Assembly (NCBI GenBank): GCA_035539175.1
Contig: DATLIY010000008.1
Span: 124,001-188,000, forward strand
DNA length: 64,000 nucleotides
Source of the DNA: Acidisarcina sp.
GTDB lineage: Bacteria; Acidobacteriota; Terriglobia; Terriglobales; Acidobacteriaceae
Direction: 5' to 3'
Positions 19,726 through 42,991 of the stretch are shown here, piece by piece. The notes beneath the pieces are model-generated. The model saw only the letters and a program-made list of their open reading frames with translations. It was not told the DNA's origin and ran no database searches. Made by a program: the position numbers and the translations under genes. Numbering within the stretch: position 1 is the stretch's first letter; every line of letters starts with the position of its first letter.

Positions 19726-20250
19726 CTAGGTGAAGATGATCTGCGCGCCCGCCGCCTTCTCATAGAACTGACCTACGGAGATCACATCGTCGACCTCGGG
19801 GCAGAAGTCTTCGCGCTTCAGGTGGAACATGTCCACCGTCGCGCGGCAGGCGTAAATCTCACCACCCGAGTCGTGGATCATGGTCAGGAACTCGCCGACC
19901 GGGGGAATGTCGATCTTTTCCATCTCCTTTTTCATCATCGACGTTGCGAAGGAGGACATACCCGGCAGTGCGCCCAGCAGCGTCGGAATGTGCATGCCGG
20001 GGTTTCCCACGGTCGCTACTTTGAGGTCGTTCATCCGCTTCTTAACGATCGCGTCGAGCCCGAAGAAGGTGAAGAAGATCGATGCTTCAATCCCTTCCAT
20101 GCGCGCGCCGTTCGCCATGATCAGTCCAGGATAGACGCCCTCCAGCGATCCCCGCGAGATAATGATCGACACTCGTTGTATAGGCTCGGGCGCATCTGTT
20201 TTCGCAGCGTCCGCGCTCTGTATAGGTTGAACTGATGCTGTCTCTGCCAT
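19726..20250 (-). CDS. DsrE2-like sulfur carrier protein
   Basis: A 174-residue protein with a 25-residue polar N-terminus and then a DsrE/DsrF/DsrH-type fold: VSIIISRGSLEGVYPGLIMANGA, ASIFFTFFGLDAIVKK, and MIHDSGGEIYACRATVDMF with the likely persulfide-carrying Cys135. A second Cys150 lies in EDFCPEV. A hydrophobic stretch (IHIPTLLGALPGMSSFATSMM-like segment in the middle) is typical of DsrE2, which is often membrane-associated. DsrE2 proteins take sulfane sulfur and pass it to TusA or DsrC. It is the last gene of the SQR operon, 16 bases after the tusE-like gene. Confidence 0.84.
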   Translation of the reverse strand: MAETASVQPIQSADAAKTDAPEPIQRVSIIISRGSLEGVYPGLIMANGARMEGIEASIFFTFFGLDAIVKKRMNDLKVATVGNPGMHIPTLLGALPGMSSFATSMMKKEMEKIDIPPVGEFLTMIHDSGGEIYACRATVDMFHLKREDFCPEVDDVISVGQFYEKAAGAQIIFT

Positions 20251-20266: not shown

Positions 20267-20584
20267 TTAAATGCAACCTTTAGGTTTTGGAAGCCCTGCG
20301 ATTTTGGCCGCGCGCTTTGCAGGGCCCTTGGGAAAGAGTTGATAGAGCGACTTGGTGTCCACTCCGCTCTCCTTGGTCAGGCGGCGGATCGATGGCGCGT
20401 CTCCTTCCTTTTCGAAGACGTTGCGCATGTAGTGGATGACCGCCCAGTGCTGAGGCGTCAGCTGAGAAATTCCTTCTTGAGCCGCTATCTCCCGTGCGAT
20501 GTCCTCGTTCCAGTCGCTACGGTTGGCAAGGTGGCCGTCAGCGTCCAGAGCAAGTGCTTTTCCAGCTATAGTCATTGTTCCCAT
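20267..20584 (-). CDS. TusE/DsrC-family sulfur relay protein
   Basis: A 105-residue protein with the typical DsrC layout: LDADGHLANRSDWNEDIAREIA, LTPQHWAVIHYMRNVFEKEG, APSIRRLTKESGV, and the flexible C-terminal arm LPKPKGCI. The penultimate Cys104 (CysA) is present. The second arm cysteine of true DsrC (eleven residues before) is replaced by Ala, so it should act as a TusE-like single-Cys persulfide carrier rather than as a co-substrate of sulfite reductase. It is placed between DUF1641 (four-base gap) and DsrE2. Confidence 0.92.
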   Translation of the reverse strand: MGTMTIAGKALALDADGHLANRSDWNEDIAREIAAQEGISQLTPQHWAVIHYMRNVFEKEGDAPSIRRLTKESGVDTKSLYQLFPKGPAKRAAKIAGLPKPKGCI

Positions 20585-20587
20585 GAT

Positions 20588-21286
20588 TCACCTTTCTGAG
20601 GTCGATGCTCCGGCTGAGCCGGTGTTGCTTGATCCCACTACCTTGAGAAACTCAACGAGGATGGCGATCCCGCGCCGGGCATCCGGCGAGTTCAGATCGC
20701 GCACAATCTTGAAGAGCGATTTGTGAATGTCCATTGTCGCCTGCACTTTCGCAAAGCCGTGGAGAATGGCCTCGAGCGCCTGAAGAGCGTCCGGCCTCGT
20801 CAACTCGCGGAGGAAGCCGACGAATTGCGGAACGCTTGCCTCCATCTGCTTGAGATCTTCGGCGGAGTGCGCCTTCACCAGCGCGTCTCCGATCCTCATC
20901 CCCGTTTGCACCACACCAAAGTAGCCCTTCTCCTGCAGCGTGCCGCATCCCGTCACCGCCTGCTGGTAGAGGTCGCGAGCGATGGGCTGCATATCCTGGA
21001 TAAGGTCCGCCGCGCTCTCCAGTTGCTGCAATGCTGCAGTCAGCAGATTTGCATCGCGCAGAGCGGCTTTGAAGAGATGGACAATTTCCTGCGGACGAAG
21101 GTTCATGCTTTCGCAGGCAGTGGTCGCTTCTCCAAACGCGTCTCTGGCTACAAGCGTCAGATCCGCCATCAGGTCTTCGGCTTCGTTTCTTACGCGCTTC
21201 ATGTGGCCCAACTCTTCCACGATGAAGTCGAGCCGGCTCTCGATTCCGGCAATACGATCTTCGGCAGTGATGGCTGACATCGTCAT
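20588..21286 (-). CDS. DUF1641 protein
   Basis: A 232-residue protein from ATG 21286, whose start overlaps the SQR stop (ATGA). It is mostly alpha-helical, with an N-terminal coiled coil (EDRIAGIESRLDFIVEELGHMKRVRNEAEDL). A second half (FVGFLRELTRPDALQALEAILHGFAKVQ) matches the DUF1641 core. DUF1641 proteins occur beside SQR-like flavoproteins and formate dehydrogenases and may be membrane-side partners, but no function is proven. Translational coupling to the SQR suggests they form a complex. Confidence 0.85.
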   Translation of the reverse strand: MTMSAITAEDRIAGIESRLDFIVEELGHMKRVRNEAEDLMADLTLVARDAFGEATTACESMNLRPQEIVHLFKAALRDANLLTAALQQLESAADLIQDMQPIARDLYQQAVTGCGTLQEKGYFGVVQTGMRIGDALVKAHSAEDLKQMEASVPQFVGFLRELTRPDALQALEAILHGFAKVQATMDIHKSLFKIVRDLNSPDARRGIAILVEFLKVVGSSNTGSAGASTSER

Positions 21287-22512
21287 GCTCGCTTTCCCGC
21301 CATGGACATGGCGGAGCCTATCGGCAGTTCGACACCGCGAAGCAGCATATTCCAATAGACCCAGCGGAACATGAGCTTGCCGTAGTGGTTGATGCTGCTT
21401 TCGCCGAGTAATGTGAATGGGCCAGCGCCAGGAAGCGGAAATTCTCCCGGGAGCGGCTCCGTCTTATAGTTGAAGTCGATCAGAAGCCCCTTACCGAAGC
21501 CCGACTCTATAAAGCAGTTGGTGTGACCATCGAAGCGCGCGGGCATCGGGCGTCCCTCGGCGCGTTCGACAAAGTTCTCGCAGAGAACATCCGCCTGGAA
21601 GTGAACCACCGAGCCGGCCTTGGAGCTGGGAAGGTTGGTGGCATCTCCCAGAACAAAGACATTCTCCAATCCCTCGGCCAGCAGCGTTTCCTTATCCGTG
21701 GGAATAAAGTTCAGCTCGTTACCGAGGCCGCTACGCTCGATGCAGGCGTCGCCCATGTTAGTCGGAATCGAGACGAGCAGGTCATAGCTCACCTCGGTGT
21801 CGTCCCAGGAAACAATCTTCTTTTCTACGCTGTCCACCCGCGCCAGGCCAAAGTCGGGAGTCACCGAAATCTTCTTCCGCTCCAGAAAGTCTCCCAGGAC
21901 CTGCGAGGCCTTCGGCTTGGTGAACGCGCCGGAGAGTGGCGTTACGAGGTGCAGATCCACCTTGTCGCGCATGCCTCGTTCGGTAAAGTACGCATCGGCG
22001 AGAAAGAGAAATTCCAGCGGAGCCACCGGACACTTGATGGGCATCTCGGTAAAGTTCAGCACGAGCTTGCCGCCCTGCCATCCCTTCAGGAACTGGCCCA
22101 GCCGTTCGGTGCCCTTCGGAGTATAAAAGTCAAACTTGCTTCTGCCCCACTCGTCATCCAACAGGCCTTCGGTCTGCTCGGGATGAATATCCGCTCCGGT
22201 AGCAAGGATCAGATAGTCGTACTTGAGAATGGAGTGATCCTCGAGAATCACCGTATTCTTGTCCGGCTCGATATGATCGATACCGGAGATCACCAGCTTC
22301 ACTCCCGCAGGCAGGTACTGGCGGCGGGGCTTCACAGTATCCCGCAGTTGGTAGGTGCCAAAGGGAACGAAGAGAAAGCCCGGCTGGTAATAGTGCGTTT
22401 CGGTGCTGTCCACGATGGTGATCTGCCACTCCTGCTCATCGAGTACAGACGCCAGCTTGTTCGCCATAATGGTGCCGCCGGTGCCACCACCGAGAATCAG
22501 CAGATGCCGCAT
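21283..22512 (-). CDS. sqr: Sulfide:quinone oxidoreductase-type flavoprotein
   Basis: A 409-residue FAD enzyme. The start ATG 22512 has AAGGAG at a good distance; the open frame extends to 22620. The Rossmann motif is LLILGGGTGGTIMANKL, with the second FAD site LENVFVLGDATNLPSSKAG. The redox cysteine pair expected of SQR is at Cys161 (MPIKCPVAPLE) and Cys333 (GHTNCFIES). The C-terminus (GKLMFRWVYWNMLLRGVELP) has amphipathic helices for membrane anchoring. It would oxidise sulfide to polysulfide or sulfane sulfur and reduce quinone at the inner membrane. It is coupled to DUF1641 downstream and 109 bases after the FadL gene. Confidence 0.9.
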   Translation of the reverse strand: MRHLLILGGGTGGTIMANKLASVLDEQEWQITIVDSTETHYYQPGFLFVPFGTYQLRDTVKPRRQYLPAGVKLVISGIDHIEPDKNTVILEDHSILKYDYLILATGADIHPEQTEGLLDDEWGRSKFDFYTPKGTERLGQFLKGWQGGKLVLNFTEMPIKCPVAPLEFLFLADAYFTERGMRDKVDLHLVTPLSGAFTKPKASQVLGDFLERKKISVTPDFGLARVDSVEKKIVSWDDTEVSYDLLVSIPTNMGDACIERSGLGNELNFIPTDKETLLAEGLENVFVLGDATNLPSSKAGSVVHFQADVLCENFVERAEGRPMPARFDGHTNCFIESGFGKGLLIDFNYKTEPLPGEFPLPGAGPFTLLGESSINHYGKLMFRWVYWNMLLRGVELPIGSAMSMAGKRA

Positions 22513-22621: not shown

Positions 22622-23965
22622 CTAGAAGCTTCGCGCCAATCCCACAGTGATCGAGTTTTCCGACATCCGGTTGGTAACCGAGGTTCCCGGCACTGGCCCC
22701 CGCACGGAAAGCCATTGCCCCGTCAACGAATTGCGGAAGGCGTGATAGTAGGTGACATTCAAATCCCAGCCGCCGTGCAAGGACTGCACGATTCCGCCGG
22801 AGATGTGATGCTGCACAATGGCTGGGGCCGGGGTATTCACAAAGGAGTACTTCGAGGGGATCGGGTTTTGCGAGTAGTTGTATCCGCCGATCACCTTGGT
22901 GGTGGAGGTCACGTTCTGCTGCACTCCGCCGCCAACCACCCAGATGTTGTTCCACCCAAAGCCGGCCACTGCGTCATCGGGATCGAATCCGGCCTCGTCA
23001 AAGCCGGAAGCACTGTGGTAATTGAACCAGCGCGCGTCCACGCCGATGCGGGTTCCCTTCGCCGGGGAGATGCCGACTCCCATCGTAACGAACTGCGGCA
23101 GGTCCATCTGGAACTTCAGGGTGTGCATGGCCCCCGTCAGGTCTGGGCTCTTCCAGTGGAACTCCTGGAACCATACGGGTGAGTGATAGGCCAAACCGAC
23201 GCTGACGACATTGTTGATCTGATATTGCAGGCCCGCCGCGGCACCGACCCCGAAAGACTTCGCGTTGCTGGAGGCCGACAAGTAATAGGGCATCACGCTG
23301 CCGGCCGTGACCGGAGCGGCAAACGGAGCCGGAATCACCTTAAGCATGGAGAATGCGGGCGCGATCGATATTCCCGCGGAGAGCTTGTTGGTGATGGTGC
23401 GTGACATTCCAATCGGCACCTCCAACAACACGTAGTTGGAACGAATCTTGCCGAAGCCAAAACCGTTTGGTGGCTGAGCGGTAAGGATGGGATTGGAGAA
23501 ATTCGTGTTCGCGTCGTAGTGCACACCGAAGCCACTGACCGCGATCATCGCGAAGTGATACGCATTTCGGCTTGACTGCGGGTGGTAGATGAGGGCCAGC
23601 CCCGGCATCATGGAGGCATCCCGATGGCTCCGCGTGGTTCCTTGCAGCGTCATCGCCGGAACTCCCGGACCGAATGCACCTGCATTGACGCTGCTGGAGA
23701 GGTCTCTCCAGGGAAAGAAGCCGGTGGCGTGGAACTCCAACCGCATGCCCTGAAAGCGGGAGGTGCAAGCCGGGTTCCACGCGATCGAGCCAGTTGCATC
23801 CAGACAGATTCCCGTATCCGCGCCACCCATTGCCTCGTTCACAGGCCCCGCACCATGCAGGAAGTGACCGTCTGTCGCCATCAGGCAAGACGCCCCCAAA
23901 AATGGCAACGAAACAAGCAGCAAATTTCTAAAGAGCTTTCGCCCAATCCAATTCATTCCGTCCAT
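22622..23965 (-). CDS. FadL/TodX-type outer-membrane channel (OMPP1 family)
   Basis: A 447-residue protein with GAGGAG just before ATG 23965 (MNW at 23956 is an alternative) and a signal peptide around LLLVSLPFLGASCLMA. The N-terminal hatch DGHFLHGAGPVNEAMGGADTGICLDATGSIAWNPA is the diagnostic start of FadL channels, where Asn-Pro-Ala plugs the barrel. Many beta strands follow, ending ITVGLARSF with the terminal Phe. FadL proteins pass hydrophobic molecules across the outer membrane by lateral diffusion. As the first gene of the SQR operon it may bring in a hydrophobic sulfur compound such as elemental sulfur or organic polysulfide, which is inference. Confidence 0.85.
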   Translation of the reverse strand: MDGMNWIGRKLFRNLLLVSLPFLGASCLMATDGHFLHGAGPVNEAMGGADTGICLDATGSIAWNPACTSRFQGMRLEFHATGFFPWRDLSSSVNAGAFGPGVPAMTLQGTTRSHRDASMMPGLALIYHPQSSRNAYHFAMIAVSGFGVHYDANTNFSNPILTAQPPNGFGFGKIRSNYVLLEVPIGMSRTITNKLSAGISIAPAFSMLKVIPAPFAAPVTAGSVMPYYLSASSNAKSFGVGAAAGLQYQINNVVSVGLAYHSPVWFQEFHWKSPDLTGAMHTLKFQMDLPQFVTMGVGISPAKGTRIGVDARWFNYHSASGFDEAGFDPDDAVAGFGWNNIWVVGGGVQQNVTSTTKVIGGYNYSQNPIPSKYSFVNTPAPAIVQHHISGGIVQSLHGGWDLNVTYYHAFRNSLTGQWLSVRGPVPGTSVTNRMSENSITVGLARSF

Positions 23966-24049
23966 AACTCCTCAGGTGAGAACGCCCGTACGGCTGCCTT
24001 ATCTTTTGAAATCCGCCGATACTGGGTTGTGATCTCTACTGCAGGAGAT

Positions 24050-24065
24050 GGCACGTTGCGTTCCA
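24050..24065 (-). promoter_or_regulatory. Sigma-54 (-24/-12) promoter of the sulfur operon
   Basis: On the minus strand the site reads TGGAACG-CAAC-GTGCC. The GG (-24) and GC (-12) are separated by exactly ten bases, and the block differs from TGGCACG-N4-TTGCW at only three positions. Transcription would start near 24040, about 75 bases before the FadL start. The only activator gene nearby, directly upstream, is of the sigma-54 type. Confidence 0.72.
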
Positions 24066-24115
24066 TGGTTAATATCCCATGGAATGAATAAGTTACATGC
24101 AAGATGCAAGCGCAG

Positions 24116-24132
24116 TGCAACATTGTGTTGCA
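24116..24132. promoter_or_regulatory. Palindromic activator site (UAS) of the sigma-54 regulator
   Basis: A perfect 7-bp inverted repeat, TGCAACA-TTG-TGTTGCA, is centred about 84 bases before the predicted start of transcription, the usual distance for sigma-54 enhancer sites. Additional half-like copies ATGCAAG ATGCAAG lie just downstream at 24097-24110. It sits between the regulator gene and the operon. Confidence 0.62.
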
Positions 24133-24170
24133 ACGTCGCGTCTCACCAGGGAAACGAAATGTATCAGGCG

Positions 24171-25580
24171 CTACTCCAGACGCAGCTCGCGCATCTTGCG
24201 CCAGAGCGTGGAGCGGCTGAGCCCAAGAGCCTTTGCGGCATCCGCGCGACGCCAGTGGTGAGCATCCAGAGTGGCGACCAGGTGCTCCGACTCCGGAGAA
24301 AGGTGCTGCGGCTCGCGAGATTCAGCCGCGGAGGGGCGCTCGGCGGCTCGCGGATGCTGGGTTGAAGGGTCGCGTATCTCTTGGGGCAGATCTTCCGGCA
24401 GGATTGTCTCGATCCTCGAAACCGCCACGGCATACTCCATGACGTTGGCCAATTCGCGCACATTGCCCGGCCAGGAATAGTCCAGCAGCAGGCGCGTTGC
24501 CTGCGGCGACAGGCGACGTATCAACCCATGCTGCGAAGTGACCCGGCTGAGCAGGTGAACCGCCAGCGGAGGAATATCCTCTCTTCGCTGCCGCAGCGGC
24601 GGCACTTCGATGGGAACAACACACAGTCGATAGTAGAGGTCTTCGCGCAGACGCCCCTGACGCAGGGCAGACGGAAGATCCACATTGGTGGCGGCAATGA
24701 TGCGCGCGCGCGTAGATCTGGCGACACTCTCGCCGACGCGCTCATATTGGCGCTCCTGCAGCACGCGCAACAACTTAACCTGCAGCAGAGTGGGCAGATC
24801 GCCGATCTCATCGAGAAAGAGCGTTCCCTGCGAGGCCAGTTCGAAGCGGCCGACGCGGTCCCGTACTGCTCCGGTAAAGGCTCCACGGACATGGCCGAAC
24901 AGCTCCGCCTCAAGGAGATCGGCGGGAATTGCGCCGCAGTTCACGGCAACAAAGGGTCCGCTGCATCGCTGCGAGTGCTGGTGAATGGCGCGGGCTACCA
25001 CTTCCTTTCCGGTGCCGCTTTCGCCGCTAATCAGCACCGCGGCTTCGCTCTGCTCCAGGTTCTCCACCAGCCGGAAGATGCGTTGCATCGCCGGAGAGCA
25101 GGCAATAGCGCCAGAGTAGAAAGTAGGGCCGTCCGGGCACATCTCCTCTTCTTCCGCAGGCCGAAGCAGCGCCAGATATTTCATCCGTGGATCGCAGATA
25201 CTTGTGGCATCCGGGGCCACAGGAGCGACGGTAATCGAGACCAGGTACGGCGCACAGGACCCAAATTGCAGAGTAGCACGCCAACCTTCGCGCTTATGGC
25301 CATCCTGCAGCGCCTCGCGCAGCGGCCCGCCCGGCCCCAGAAGATCCACCCCCAGCAGCTCTTCAATCCCGCGCCCGCGCAGAGCAGAGGAGGTTCCGCT
25401 CCCCAGCAGCGTATCCAGCAGATACGAGGCATGAACAATCCGGAAATCCGCATCCATGCAGACAAAGGCTCTCCCCACAGATGCGAGAGCGCGCGTCACG
25501 CCCTGCAATGCAATCTGGGTAGTCTCATCTAACGAGGGATCGACAGAGGGAAGACAGCGTAACCTGGCGCCAGAGTCCAT
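24171..25580 (-). CDS. Sigma-54-dependent activator (PAS-like, AAA+, Fis HTH)
   Basis: A 469-residue enhancer-binding protein. Residues 20-140 look like a PAS-type sensor (VGRAFVCMDADFRIVHASYLLDTLLG) containing several Cys, e.g. 109, 129 and 148. The AAA+ domain has Walker A GESGTGKE (186-193), the sigma-54 loop GAFTGA (233-238) and Walker B TLFLDEIGDL, followed by the R-finger region. The C-terminal Fis-type helix-turn-helix reads WRRADAAKALGLSRSTLWRKM. It is encoded directly before the sulfur operon on the same strand. Likely ligand classes are sulfide/persulfide (through cysteines) or a hydrophobic compound; neither is proven. Confidence 0.92.
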   Translation of the reverse strand: MDSGARLRCLPSVDPSLDETTQIALQGVTRALASVGRAFVCMDADFRIVHASYLLDTLLGSGTSSALRGRGIEELLGVDLLGPGGPLREALQDGHKREGWRATLQFGSCAPYLVSITVAPVAPDATSICDPRMKYLALLRPAEEEEMCPDGPTFYSGAIACSPAMQRIFRLVENLEQSEAAVLISGESGTGKEVVARAIHQHSQRCSGPFVAVNCGAIPADLLEAELFGHVRGAFTGAVRDRVGRFELASQGTLFLDEIGDLPTLLQVKLLRVLQERQYERVGESVARSTRARIIAATNVDLPSALRQGRLREDLYYRLCVVPIEVPPLRQRREDIPPLAVHLLSRVTSQHGLIRRLSPQATRLLLDYSWPGNVRELANVMEYAVAVSRIETILPEDLPQEIRDPSTQHPRAAERPSAAESREPQHLSPESEHLVATLDAHHWRRADAAKALGLSRSTLWRKMRELRLE

Positions 25581-25908
25581 GAACGAACGCTCCTATTCCT
25601 TGCTTTGCAACCGCCCTCGTAAACCGGATTGCAGGTGTTTACCAGGGGCAGCCTATTCCCGGGGCTTAAGTCGAATAAATACCCCTGAGCGGAGAGCGTT
25701 ACAGATAACGAGATTATTTTTGTCCCCCAATTCTGAATAAAAGCCTGGATAGTGTTCGACGTGTGTCCCAGCTCACACCAAACCTGGGCAATAGACTCCC
25801 ATGCCCCTTCCCGGATGAAATACAGGGAGGCGTATAGGGGAAAGACGATGGGGTCGGCGACGTCACCAACATGCCTGGGTGATACGCGACCCCGATGGGA
25901 GGAGCGAC
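25581..25908. other. Intergenic region upstream of the sigma-54 activator
   Basis: These 328 bases hold the leader of the activator gene and the end of the GYD gene. I see no gene and no clear -24/-12 element. Two loose half-sites, TTTGCAACC and GGATTGCAGG (25617-25635 area), resemble the TGCAACA half-site of the downstream palindrome and could give autoregulation, but the match is weak. Confidence 0.35.
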
Positions 25909-26202
25909 TCAGGCAATGCCGGAAAAGATCTTTCTGTATTCGTCCTCGGTAAAGGCGCGAAGTGTCTCGGTTTGGATCCTGCCTTGTGAGGCGAGTGTGA
26001 GTGCAGCTTTGGCCAGAGCCGCGTCATCGGGAGCCTCAATGACGAGCAACATGTCATATTGCCCCATCAGCATATAGAACTCTTTCAACTTCACCCCGGC
26101 GTCCGCAAATGCCTTTCTGCCGGCATCGAGGCGTTTGGGGCTATCCTTAAGCTGCTGCAGGCCCGTTGCTGTCCATTTGGCCAGTGCAATATACGTGGGC
26201 AT
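25909..26202 (-). CDS. GYD-domain protein
   Basis: A 97-residue protein: MPTYIALAKWTATGLQQLKDSPKRLDAGRKAFADAGVKLKEFYMLMGQYDMLLVIEAPDD is cut here for length, but the GQYDMLLVIEAPDD block is the name-giving GYD core (here QYD). It is a small ferredoxin-like dimeric alpha/beta barrel family with no established activity, often seen near redox or sulfur genes. Its start follows CCGGCGGAGGGAATCCC. It is transcribed toward the sigma-54 activator and could belong to the same transcription unit or regulon, though the 328-bp gap argues against an operon. Confidence 0.75.
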   Translation of the reverse strand: MPTYIALAKWTATGLQQLKDSPKRLDAGRKAFADAGVKLKEFYMLMGQYDMLLVIEAPDDAALAKAALTLASQGRIQTETLRAFTEDEYRKIFSGIA

Positions 26203-42247: not shown

Positions 42248-42991
42248 CTACGGCCTGGCGGACGGCTCGCCCACATGCCAGGCCTCTGGCGTGATGAAGC
42301 GGAAGCCCAGTGGCTTGTAGCGGGCCAGCAGCGCCTGTGTGGCGATGACGGAGGAGGAGCGGTTCTGGCCGATTCCCTGCTGGCCTCCGTCGTGCAACAG
42401 GATGTTGCTGCCGCGGTTGCGGCTTTGATTTGCAGCAACACCGCGGACGACACGCCGCTCGACGGATTCGGGGCTGGGCGCATCCCAATCGTGGCCCATC
42501 ACGTTCCACAGGACGGGCGTCAGGCCAAGCTTATGGGCAGTCGCGAGCACGTCTGGCCGACGGGCGCCGTGGGGAGGCCGAAAGTAGCGAACGGGCTGGC
42601 CGAGGGTATCCTCCAGCGCCTGATTGCACTCCTCGATCTCTTCGCGCACGTGGGCGGGCTTTTCAAAGAGCAACACGGGATGCGTCATGGTGTGATTGCC
42701 GATCAAGTGTCCGGCATTCGCCACGGCGCGGGCGATCTGCGGACGCTGGCGGACAAAGCGCCCGATGAAGAAGAAGGTGGCGCGCACATTGTTCTGCTCA
42801 AGGACTTCTAACAGCTTGTAAGTCCAGGGATCATTGGGGCCATCGTCGTAGGTCAAGGCGAGTTGGGAGGGATCGTGTCCCGCGACAATCGTGCGGCCGA
42901 AGATTTGCGAGGTTGGCCACATGGCGGCATAGGCATAGCCTCCCGCCGCAAGTCCAGCCGCCGCTCCCGTGATCGCCAGTTCAGGCAGCAT
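42248..42991 (-). CDS. Polysaccharide deacetylase (NodB domain, CE4)
   Basis: A 247-residue protein with an N-terminal hydrophobic anchor (AITGAAAGLAAGGYAYAAMW). The NodB motifs are all seen: TYDDGPN (catalytic Asp and metal Asp), GNHTMTHP (two metal His), FRPPHGARR, and the C-terminal NILLHDGG. It would remove N-acetyl groups from peptidoglycan or an exopolysaccharide on the periplasmic side. It is convergent with hemL, 27 bases apart. Confidence 0.92.
   Translation of the reverse strand: MLPELAITGAAAGLAAGGYAYAAMWPTSQIFGRTIVAGHDPSQLALTYDDGPNDPWTYKLLEVLEQNNVRATFFFIGRFVRQRPQIARAVANAGHLIGNHTMTHPVLLFEKPAHVREEIEECNQALEDTLGQPVRYFRPPHGARRPDVLATAHKLGLTPVLWNVMGHDWDAPSPESVERRVVRGVAANQSRNRGSNILLHDGGQQGIGQNRSSSVIATQALLARYKPLGFRFITPEAWHVGEPSARP

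Follow-up and report, generated by a model that had tools for sequence, protein, structure and literature searches.

A predicted sigma-54 control region with a three-dyad array between an enhancer-binding activator gene and a sulfur operon in Acidisarcina

Positions 24050-24166 of the window, i.e. of the whole stretch of 64,000 nucleotides from Acidisarcina sp. that was analysed, probably are a working sigma-54 control region, at which the adjacent activator acts on three dyads and switches on a FadL-SQR-DUF1641-DsrC-DsrE2 operon, likely in response to a sulfur signal. The system is of a known sort, a sigma-54 one-component switch. The computational support comes from the conservation of promoter and dyads, their near-fixed spacing, the linkage of the motif to the regulator gene, the predicted PAS fold of the sensor domain, and the conservation of cysteines therein.

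On the minus strand, the activator gene is followed by a gap of 205 nt and then by genes for FadL-like, SQR, DUF1641, DsrC-like and DsrE2-like proteins (Table 1). The match to a curated model and two conserved cysteines, C161 and C333, which are kept in 16 of 16 homologues including that of the window, argue that the second operon gene encodes a type III SQR. The model in question represents the selenoprotein subtype of type III SQR; a selenocysteine was considered and rejected, as there is no in-frame stop in any of the 16 genes (the window and 15 homologues). Homologues of the FadL-like protein with 61-80% identity adjoin related activators, and the one of locus L099 scores above the Toluene_X cut-off. 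No Pfam or NCBIfam match to a persulfide dioxygenase was found among the five operon proteins. Upstream of the activator and codirectional with it lies a GYD-domain gene (25909-26202), for which the flanking DNA of the other 84 loci described below contains no match at E 1e-6.

Table 1. Predicted features of the control region, the activator gene and the operon, with coordinates in the window
Feature	Coordinates	Strand	Basis
One-component sigma-54 activator (bEBP): predicted PAS fold (C41, C129), AAA+ with GAFTGA, Fis-type HTH	24171..25580	-	Pfam, AlphaFold
Dyad 1, TGATACATTTCGTTTCC, degenerate, 3 mismatches	24150..24166	-	Offset -101, peak of the averaged profile (24 loci)
Dyad 2, TGAGACGCGACGTTGCA, degenerate, 3 mismatches	24129..24145	-	Offset -80, peak of the averaged profile (24 loci)
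Dyad 3, TGCAACACAATGTTGCA, perfect; palindrome of the preliminary description	24116..24132	-	Offset -67; held-out conservation; single exact genome site
Predicted -24/-12 sigma-54 promoter element, TGGAACGCAACGTGCC	24050..24065	-	TGG-N10-GC at a conserved position in orthologous loci
OmpP1/FadL-like outer-membrane protein (first operon gene)	22622..23965	-	Pfam Toluene_X 1.3e-6, 27.7 bits (cut-off 29.7)
Type III sulfide:quinone reductase (SQR), predicted	21283..22512	-	NCBIfam NF049943, 625.9 bits (cut-off 525)
DUF1641 protein	20588..21286	-	Pfam PF07849 7.6e-7
DsrC/TusE-like sulfur-carrier protein	20267..20584	-	Pfam DsrC 1.8e-36; TIGR03342 above cut-off
DsrE2-like sulfur-carrier protein	19726..20250	-	Pfam DrsE_2 3.1e-30; NCBIfam DsrE2 below cut-off

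The activator has 469 residues, with Pfam matches to Sigma54_activat (PF00158, 1.7e-68), AAA_lid_14 and HTH_8 (1.3e-12) and no receiver domain among these matches. The sigma-54-type AAA+ domain with GAFTGA, the Fis-type HTH and the predicted upstream enhancer sites argue for a bEBP, and rpoN is present in the genome. The GAFTGA loop is intact, as had been noted from the beginning, and it recurs in 75 of the 85 related activators, with GSFTGA in three and GAYTGA in one (counts that include the activator of the window and three fragments). One of two activator copies in genome G003 (locus L072) has a GALPGA loop and neither dyad nor box behind it; this activator is perhaps a decayed or repurposed paralogue.

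The gap between the activator and the FadL-like gene, the ATG of which is at 23965 and is preceded by GAGGAG, contains TGGAACGCAACGTGCC and TGCAACA-N3-TGTTGCA. On the minus strand, TGGAACGCAACGTGCC runs from 24065 to 24050 and has ten bases between its GG (24064-24063) and its GC (24052-24051), while 24116-24132 reads TGCAACA-TTG-TGTTGCA with both 7-bp arms being perfect, so that sequence, coordinates and spacing are as given in the preliminary description. If the C of the GC is taken as -12, the predicted +1 is at about 24039, which puts the palindrome centre (24124) at about -85, as compared to the 84 bases of the preliminary description. Only this palindrome had been named there, and not the two further, degenerate dyads; dyads 2 and 3 have four bases, TGCA, in common. 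Judged from the window alone, promoter box and palindrome are weak evidence. Relative to TGGCAYGNNNNTTGCW, the box differs at 3 positions, and as 169 boxes with up to 3 mismatches were found in the window versus 184 expected, the -24/-12 box alone is not significant. When the mononucleotides of the intergenic region were shuffled 300 times, 35 shuffles contained a perfect inverted repeat with arms of at least 7 and a spacer of 0-12. No sigma-70-like site was found in 23900-24300 or, where a promoter of the activator gene was sought, in 25540-25960, and the 86 nt from the predicted start give no indication of a structured leader RNA (z-score 0.16). Could palindrome and GG-N10-GC box then be products of chance, with the operon being expressed by read-through from upstream? 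The lack of significance in the window would agree with this, as would the fact that activator and operon are codirectional with no terminator found in 23900-24300, but the comparative results on box, dyad, spacing and regulator linkage that are described in the following make such a coincidence extremely improbable. It is because of these comparative tests across related loci that both elements stand far above chance, and with them the original observation of a sigma-54 promoter and a palindrome in front of the sulfur operon is confirmed and enlarged to a predicted array of three dyads.

A separate perfect inverted repeat, TTCCATGG-N8-CCATGGAA, at 24061-24084 overlaps the -24 element and could be a repressor site. 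Among 300 shuffles of the gap, 11 have inverted repeats with arms of at least 8. Judged by eye, L054 has only part of the repeat, and neither L054 nor L075 has an equivalent with arms of at least 6 at that place.

For the comparisons, 104 loci (the window, L054-L076 and L077-L156) were reduced to 85 after removal of 9 that run off their contig, 1 without match and 9 duplicates, and 82 of these 85 have activators of more than 400 residues. Of 396 genomes that were sampled from across the phylum, 19 have the sensor domain (E 1e-5). It was likewise found in 80 named loci, the best 80 of 85 relatives, which are titled mainly as Acidobacteria, followed by Anaeromyxobacter or Myxococcales, Gemmatimonadota, some Deltaproteobacteria and one Bacteroidetes bin; plasmid-borne relatives were not found at E 1e-5. 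We use “Terriglobia-like” as a label for a sensor-domain identity of at least 56.5%, which is no taxonomic classification. The sigma-54 box was counted in 31 Terriglobia-like loci and 50 others, with L153 being omitted as too short. Some loci are close relatives, such as those with activators of more than 85% identity (L054/L078, L085/L087/L088, L093/L096) or with identical boxes (L091/L092), and as all were counted without a tree, the counts given here are not independent events.

A 17-bp dyad, TGHAACA-N3-TGTTDCA, is found repeatedly just downstream of the genes for related activators, and in several relatives dyad 1 starts on the stop codon of the activator itself. As the consensus TGHAACANNNTGTTDCA derives from 20 regions that follow activator stop codons, only the test on held-out loci is independent of these regions, namely on the 63 loci from L078 onward that have activators of more than 400 residues. 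In the 203 nt that follow the activator stop, the dyad was found with at most one mismatch in 13 of 63 held-out loci versus 2 of 3990 control windows of equal size from elsewhere in the same loci, and with at most two mismatches in 25 of 63 versus 10 of 3990. When the palindrome of the window itself served as query with at most two mismatches, it was found in 16 of 63 loci versus 2 of 3990 control windows. The remaining 38 of the 63, above all from Anaeromyxobacter and Myxococcales, lack a dyad with at most two mismatches behind the activator, and the site or its arrangement is therefore not general in the family. The sigma-54 box, again with at most two mismatches, is present in forward orientation in 18 of 31 Terriglobia-like loci (window included) as compared to 5 in reverse and 1.47 in shuffles, and in 12 of the 50 remaining loci as compared to 1 in reverse and 1.06 in shuffles.

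Both elements occur together in 24 of 31 Terriglobia-like loci (window included), and in 20 of these 24 the dyad nearest to the box begins 65-69 nt before TGG-N10-GC; the other four spacings, 80, 81, 98 and 98 nt, are close to the positions of dyads 2 and 1. Such a tight spacing is unusual for enhancers. A dyad profile averaged over 24 Terriglobia-like loci that have a box with at most 3 mismatches (one base of slack, maximum 14) has its peaks at -67 (11.08 of 14), -80 (10.58) and -101 (9.58), the mean of all offsets being 6.22, and the window fits this profile with the perfect dyad 3 at -67 and the three-mismatch dyads 2 and 1 at -80 and -101. Outside the Terriglobia-like group, both elements were found in 7 of 51 loci, at scattered distances of 67, 75, 79, 81, 82, 90 and 101 nt, and the corresponding profile (18 loci with box) reaches a maximum of only 7.89 at -91 versus a mean of 5.89.

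A stimulus-dependent regulon had been predicted, and a genome scan for the palindrome had been proposed to reveal its other targets. For such other targets, the scan gave no support. In the genome of 3.9 Mb, the exact palindrome occurs once (a count that was made after the fact), and the relaxed pattern TGNNACANNNTGTNNCA likewise has one copy, so that a wide regulon is not supported, although degenerate dyad sites may exist elsewhere in the genome. With at most two mismatches, 17 palindrome sites were found versus 11 for the reversed pattern, and weaker copies are thus near background. Three further sites were examined, i.e. both one-mismatch sites and one of the fourteen two-mismatch sites; two of the three are within ORFs, none has a box at a distance of 65-69 nt, and none of the exact or one-mismatch sites supports another target. 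Only one of the three has a GG-N10-GC candidate, with 4 mismatches and 82 nt away; this is the one-mismatch copy within an ORF at 42393-42409, which probably arose by chance. Near-consensus sigma-54 boxes with at most one mismatch number 121 genome-wide versus 87 for the reversed pattern, and the three-mismatch box of the window is not among them.

In the sequences compared, the motif goes with the activator gene rather than with the target. Three of nine relatives searched have the perfect motif, once each and always beside the regulator, and it is absent in the other six. Among 396 genomes, 26 SQR genes were found, 21 of them away from the regulator and five beside it, where “away” means that the sensor domain was not found in the genome, except for G439 and G111, in which the regulator is on another contig. 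The region upstream of the SQR genes away from the regulator (about 900 nt, in one case 302 nt) has the dyad with at most two mismatches in 0 of 21 cases; a first test had covered 20 of the 26 genes, omitting the five linked ones and that of L186 (38% identical), and the recount comprises all 26, with no dyad upstream of the L186 gene either. Dyads are present upstream of the linked SQR genes in L164, L177 and L178, where no FadL gene is in between, and are lacking upstream of those in L161 and L165 because a FadL gene intervenes. In G439, the regulator, which is followed by FadL, has the motif, and the SQR gene on another contig does not. These data also bear on the idea that another protein, e.g. 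an ArsR-type regulator or another bEBP, binds the dyads, which then would be located behind the activator gene by coincidence. The genome encodes 13 matches to the activator protein, itself included, and because of these other bEBPs a different activator is possible; ArsR-type genes are found downstream in L085 and L099, and overlapping dyads could suit a repressor. We nevertheless regard this as very unlikely, as the motif tracks the activator gene rather than the target, is hardly found in the remainder of these loci, occurs in its perfect form at most once per genome in the nine genomes searched, and keeps its near-fixed distance to the sigma-54 box.

What could the activator sense? Its own N-terminal part has no Pfam match, but PAS_4 matches 17 of 22 homologous N-terminal domains at E<=1, and GAF is absent among the six families listed for these 22. 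The AlphaFold model of the N-terminal domain (63 sequences, pLDDT 85.5) shows two strands, helices and three strands, i.e. a predicted PAS fold, and every match listed by Foldseek and VIA-align is a PAS or LOV-type domain or a protein with such a domain. C129 is a cysteine in 61 of 62 rows of the alignment. C41 is a cysteine in 41 of 63 rows and C39 in 14 of 63, and the two never occur together. In six rows, C129 is the only one of the three; one row has none of them, and one has neither C39 nor C41 and is gapped at 129. As 13 of the 14 rows with C39 are titled Anaeromyxobacter or Myxococcales, with one from Deltaproteobacteria, the cysteine may have changed its position only once. Positions 39 and 41 belong to one predicted strand, on which they are separated by a single residue, and therefore would point the same way. 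L145 and L147, which have neither C39 nor C41, have a cysteine at 106. Of the cysteines originally put forward as sensors for sulfide or persulfide, 129 thus holds up very well, position 109 does not (cysteine in 2 of 63), and 148 is variable (19 of the 24 rows that reach this position, 7 of 21 in a wider full-length set), and C41, which had not been named, is the better-supported second cysteine. Cysteine-based sensing is thus possible from the alignment, and from cysteine conservation together with neighbouring genes for SQR-DsrC-DsrE2, polysulfide-reductase-like proteins and sulfur transport we infer that sulfur is sensed; sulfide or persulfide may be the signal.

A serious rival to this view is a cofactor-based redox PAS: the DNA part would be right, and the PAS domain would read redox state or a small ligand via a cofactor (flavin, haem) or a pocket rather than sulfur via its cysteines. 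In Foldseek, the best match is a PAS domain that contains FAD, namely that of NifL (2gj3, E 1.0e-6); Aer and flavin LOV domains come close to it, and multihaem cytochromes and molybdopterin enzymes are among the targets in relatives. This structure, however, is common to PAS folds whatever their ligand, as is also seen in the VIA-align comparison, in which PpsR has the highest score (Z 13.3), followed by many different PAS domains with Z 10.7-12.5, and the near-invariance of C129 would need another explanation. We regard a cofactor-based sensor as conceivable, if on the unlikely side.

The sulfur-sensing model finds its second line of support in the genes near the regulator in relatives. In 16 of 85 loci, which belong to several phyla and include distant ones, the neighbourhood of the regulator comprises an SQR gene, always together with those for DsrC and DsrE2; in L150 and L151, these three genes are not downstream of the activator but divergent and upstream. 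The flanking DNA of the other 69 loci has no SQR match, and several of these have only a FadL-like gene. HdrA- and MvhD-like proteins are encoded near the regulator in L086 and an MvhD-like protein in L099, an NrfD/polysulfide-reductase-like subunit in L059, a PhsA-like molybdoenzyme below the PhsA cut-off in L061, molybdopterin domains also in L121, and multihaem cytochromes in L060, L135 and L136. In L058, the first gene after the regulator encodes a Sulf_transp protein, and in L063 an octahaem cytochrome of the tetrathionate-reductase type (above cut-off). The neighbour loci annotated in such detail were hand-picked and are no random sample, and as no dyad with at most two mismatches is found behind the activator in L058, L059, L061, L063, L121, L135 and L136, adjacency is the sole link there. 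ArsR-type repressor genes lie behind the FadL-like gene at L085:13266-13682 and L099:12100-12495, with weak BigR matches under the cut-off, which suggests a two-layer control in some relatives. The first gene of L085 was considered as a DUF302 gene, which was rejected since no family matched.

With FadL-like genes in 37 of 85 loci, 32 of them downstream and on the same strand, versus SQR in 16, it may be asked whether a hydrophobic organic substrate of the porin is the true signal, the sulfur genes being passengers in some genomes; FadL indeed follows the regulator without SQR in G439 and others. We consider this unlikely, since FadL often is accompanied by SQR-DsrC-DsrE2, HdrA/MvhD-like, NrfD/polysulfide-reductase-like or PhsA-like genes, and since the first gene elsewhere is the sulfur-transport gene of L058 or the cytochrome gene of L063. 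FadL could also transport S8.

The closest known systems are FisR with respect to function, which was reportedly studied by Li in 2017, and NorR with respect to three enhancer sites. FisR of Cupriavidus pinatubonensis and Acinetobacter baumannii is likewise described as a sigma-54 activator (PMC7315123, PMC9774590, PMC12170894). According to these reports, the A. baumannii protein controls adjacent SQR genes and responds to sulfide or reactive sulfur (PMC7315123), and Cupriavidus FisR senses reactive sulfur by means of disulfide and tetrasulfide bonds between three of its cysteines (PMC9774590). There is thus a precedent for a sigma-54 activator that can sense reactive sulfur. As A. baumannii FisR is described as sulfide-responsive without the cysteines of its Cupriavidus counterpart, conserved cysteines do not prove a mechanism (PMC7315123). 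The differences to the window, insofar as descriptions can be compared, are the three conserved cysteines of Cupriavidus FisR as opposed to C129 with C41 or C39, a persulfide dioxygenase in the A. baumannii FisR operon, which the operon of the window lacks while it has SQR, and the partners of the system described here, i.e. type III SQR, DsrC, DsrE2, DUF1641 and FadL. In case of NorR, which controls norVW in E. coli, three enhancer sites are reported to be essential for activation and to serve as scaffold for the oligomer (PMC2941729). The likeness to this one-component bEBP with three enhancer sites before the promoter concerns the architecture only, with all three sites being predicted and two of them degenerate in the window; the sensor of NorR is a GAF domain and its signal NO, whereas the activator has a predicted PAS domain, and of the three copies of the dyad described here, TGHAACA-N3-TGTTDCA, two overlap by four bases. 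The activator lacks a GAF match, and the NorR model remains below its cut-off. A co-localisation of EBP genes with their own sigma-54 promoters, as in the window, is described for Desulfovibrio vulgaris, where regulons mostly comprise one to four operons and one sigma-54 promoter is downstream of its EBP gene (PMC4641369). Apart from the motif logos, which are figures, the main text of that study contains neither “sulfide”, and hence no sulfide regulon, nor any of four hexamers of the motif described here (PMC4641369).

From the above, we infer protein-DNA binding, hexamer assembly, and the signal with its chemistry as follows. Most likely, three dimers of the activator would bind the three 17-bp dyads, which begin just past its own stop codon, and as these are phased at -101, -80 and -67 from the box, they would assemble a hexamer. 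The hexamer would remodel the sigma-54 polymerase at about 24039, and the opening of the promoter would turn on the operon. Reactive or zero-valent sulfur would most likely be the signal, to which the PAS domain would respond via C129 and a second cysteine, here C41.

More broadly, and only tentatively, these activators may represent an unstudied family of Acidobacteriota, Myxococcota and Gemmatimonadota, the PAS domain of which senses zero-valent sulfur (polysulfide or S8) through a near-invariant cysteine and a relocated partner (41 or 39, perhaps 106), and in Terriglobia a rigidly phased three-dyad enhancer may drive the uptake and the oxidation or reduction of inorganic sulfur. A weak literature search, which was confined to open-licence papers and in which the colon spelling of “sulfide:quinone” was unsearchable, found no work on this regulator type with sulfide or SQR in Acidobacteria. 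The near-fixed spacing of 65-69 nt and the overlapping dyads make the system good material for studying enhancer geometry and the building of bEBP hexamers. As a regulator, its predicted DNA sites, a promoter and two candidate sensor residues can now be named, the sensing of inorganic sulfur in these Acidobacteriota becomes testable by a simple reporter.
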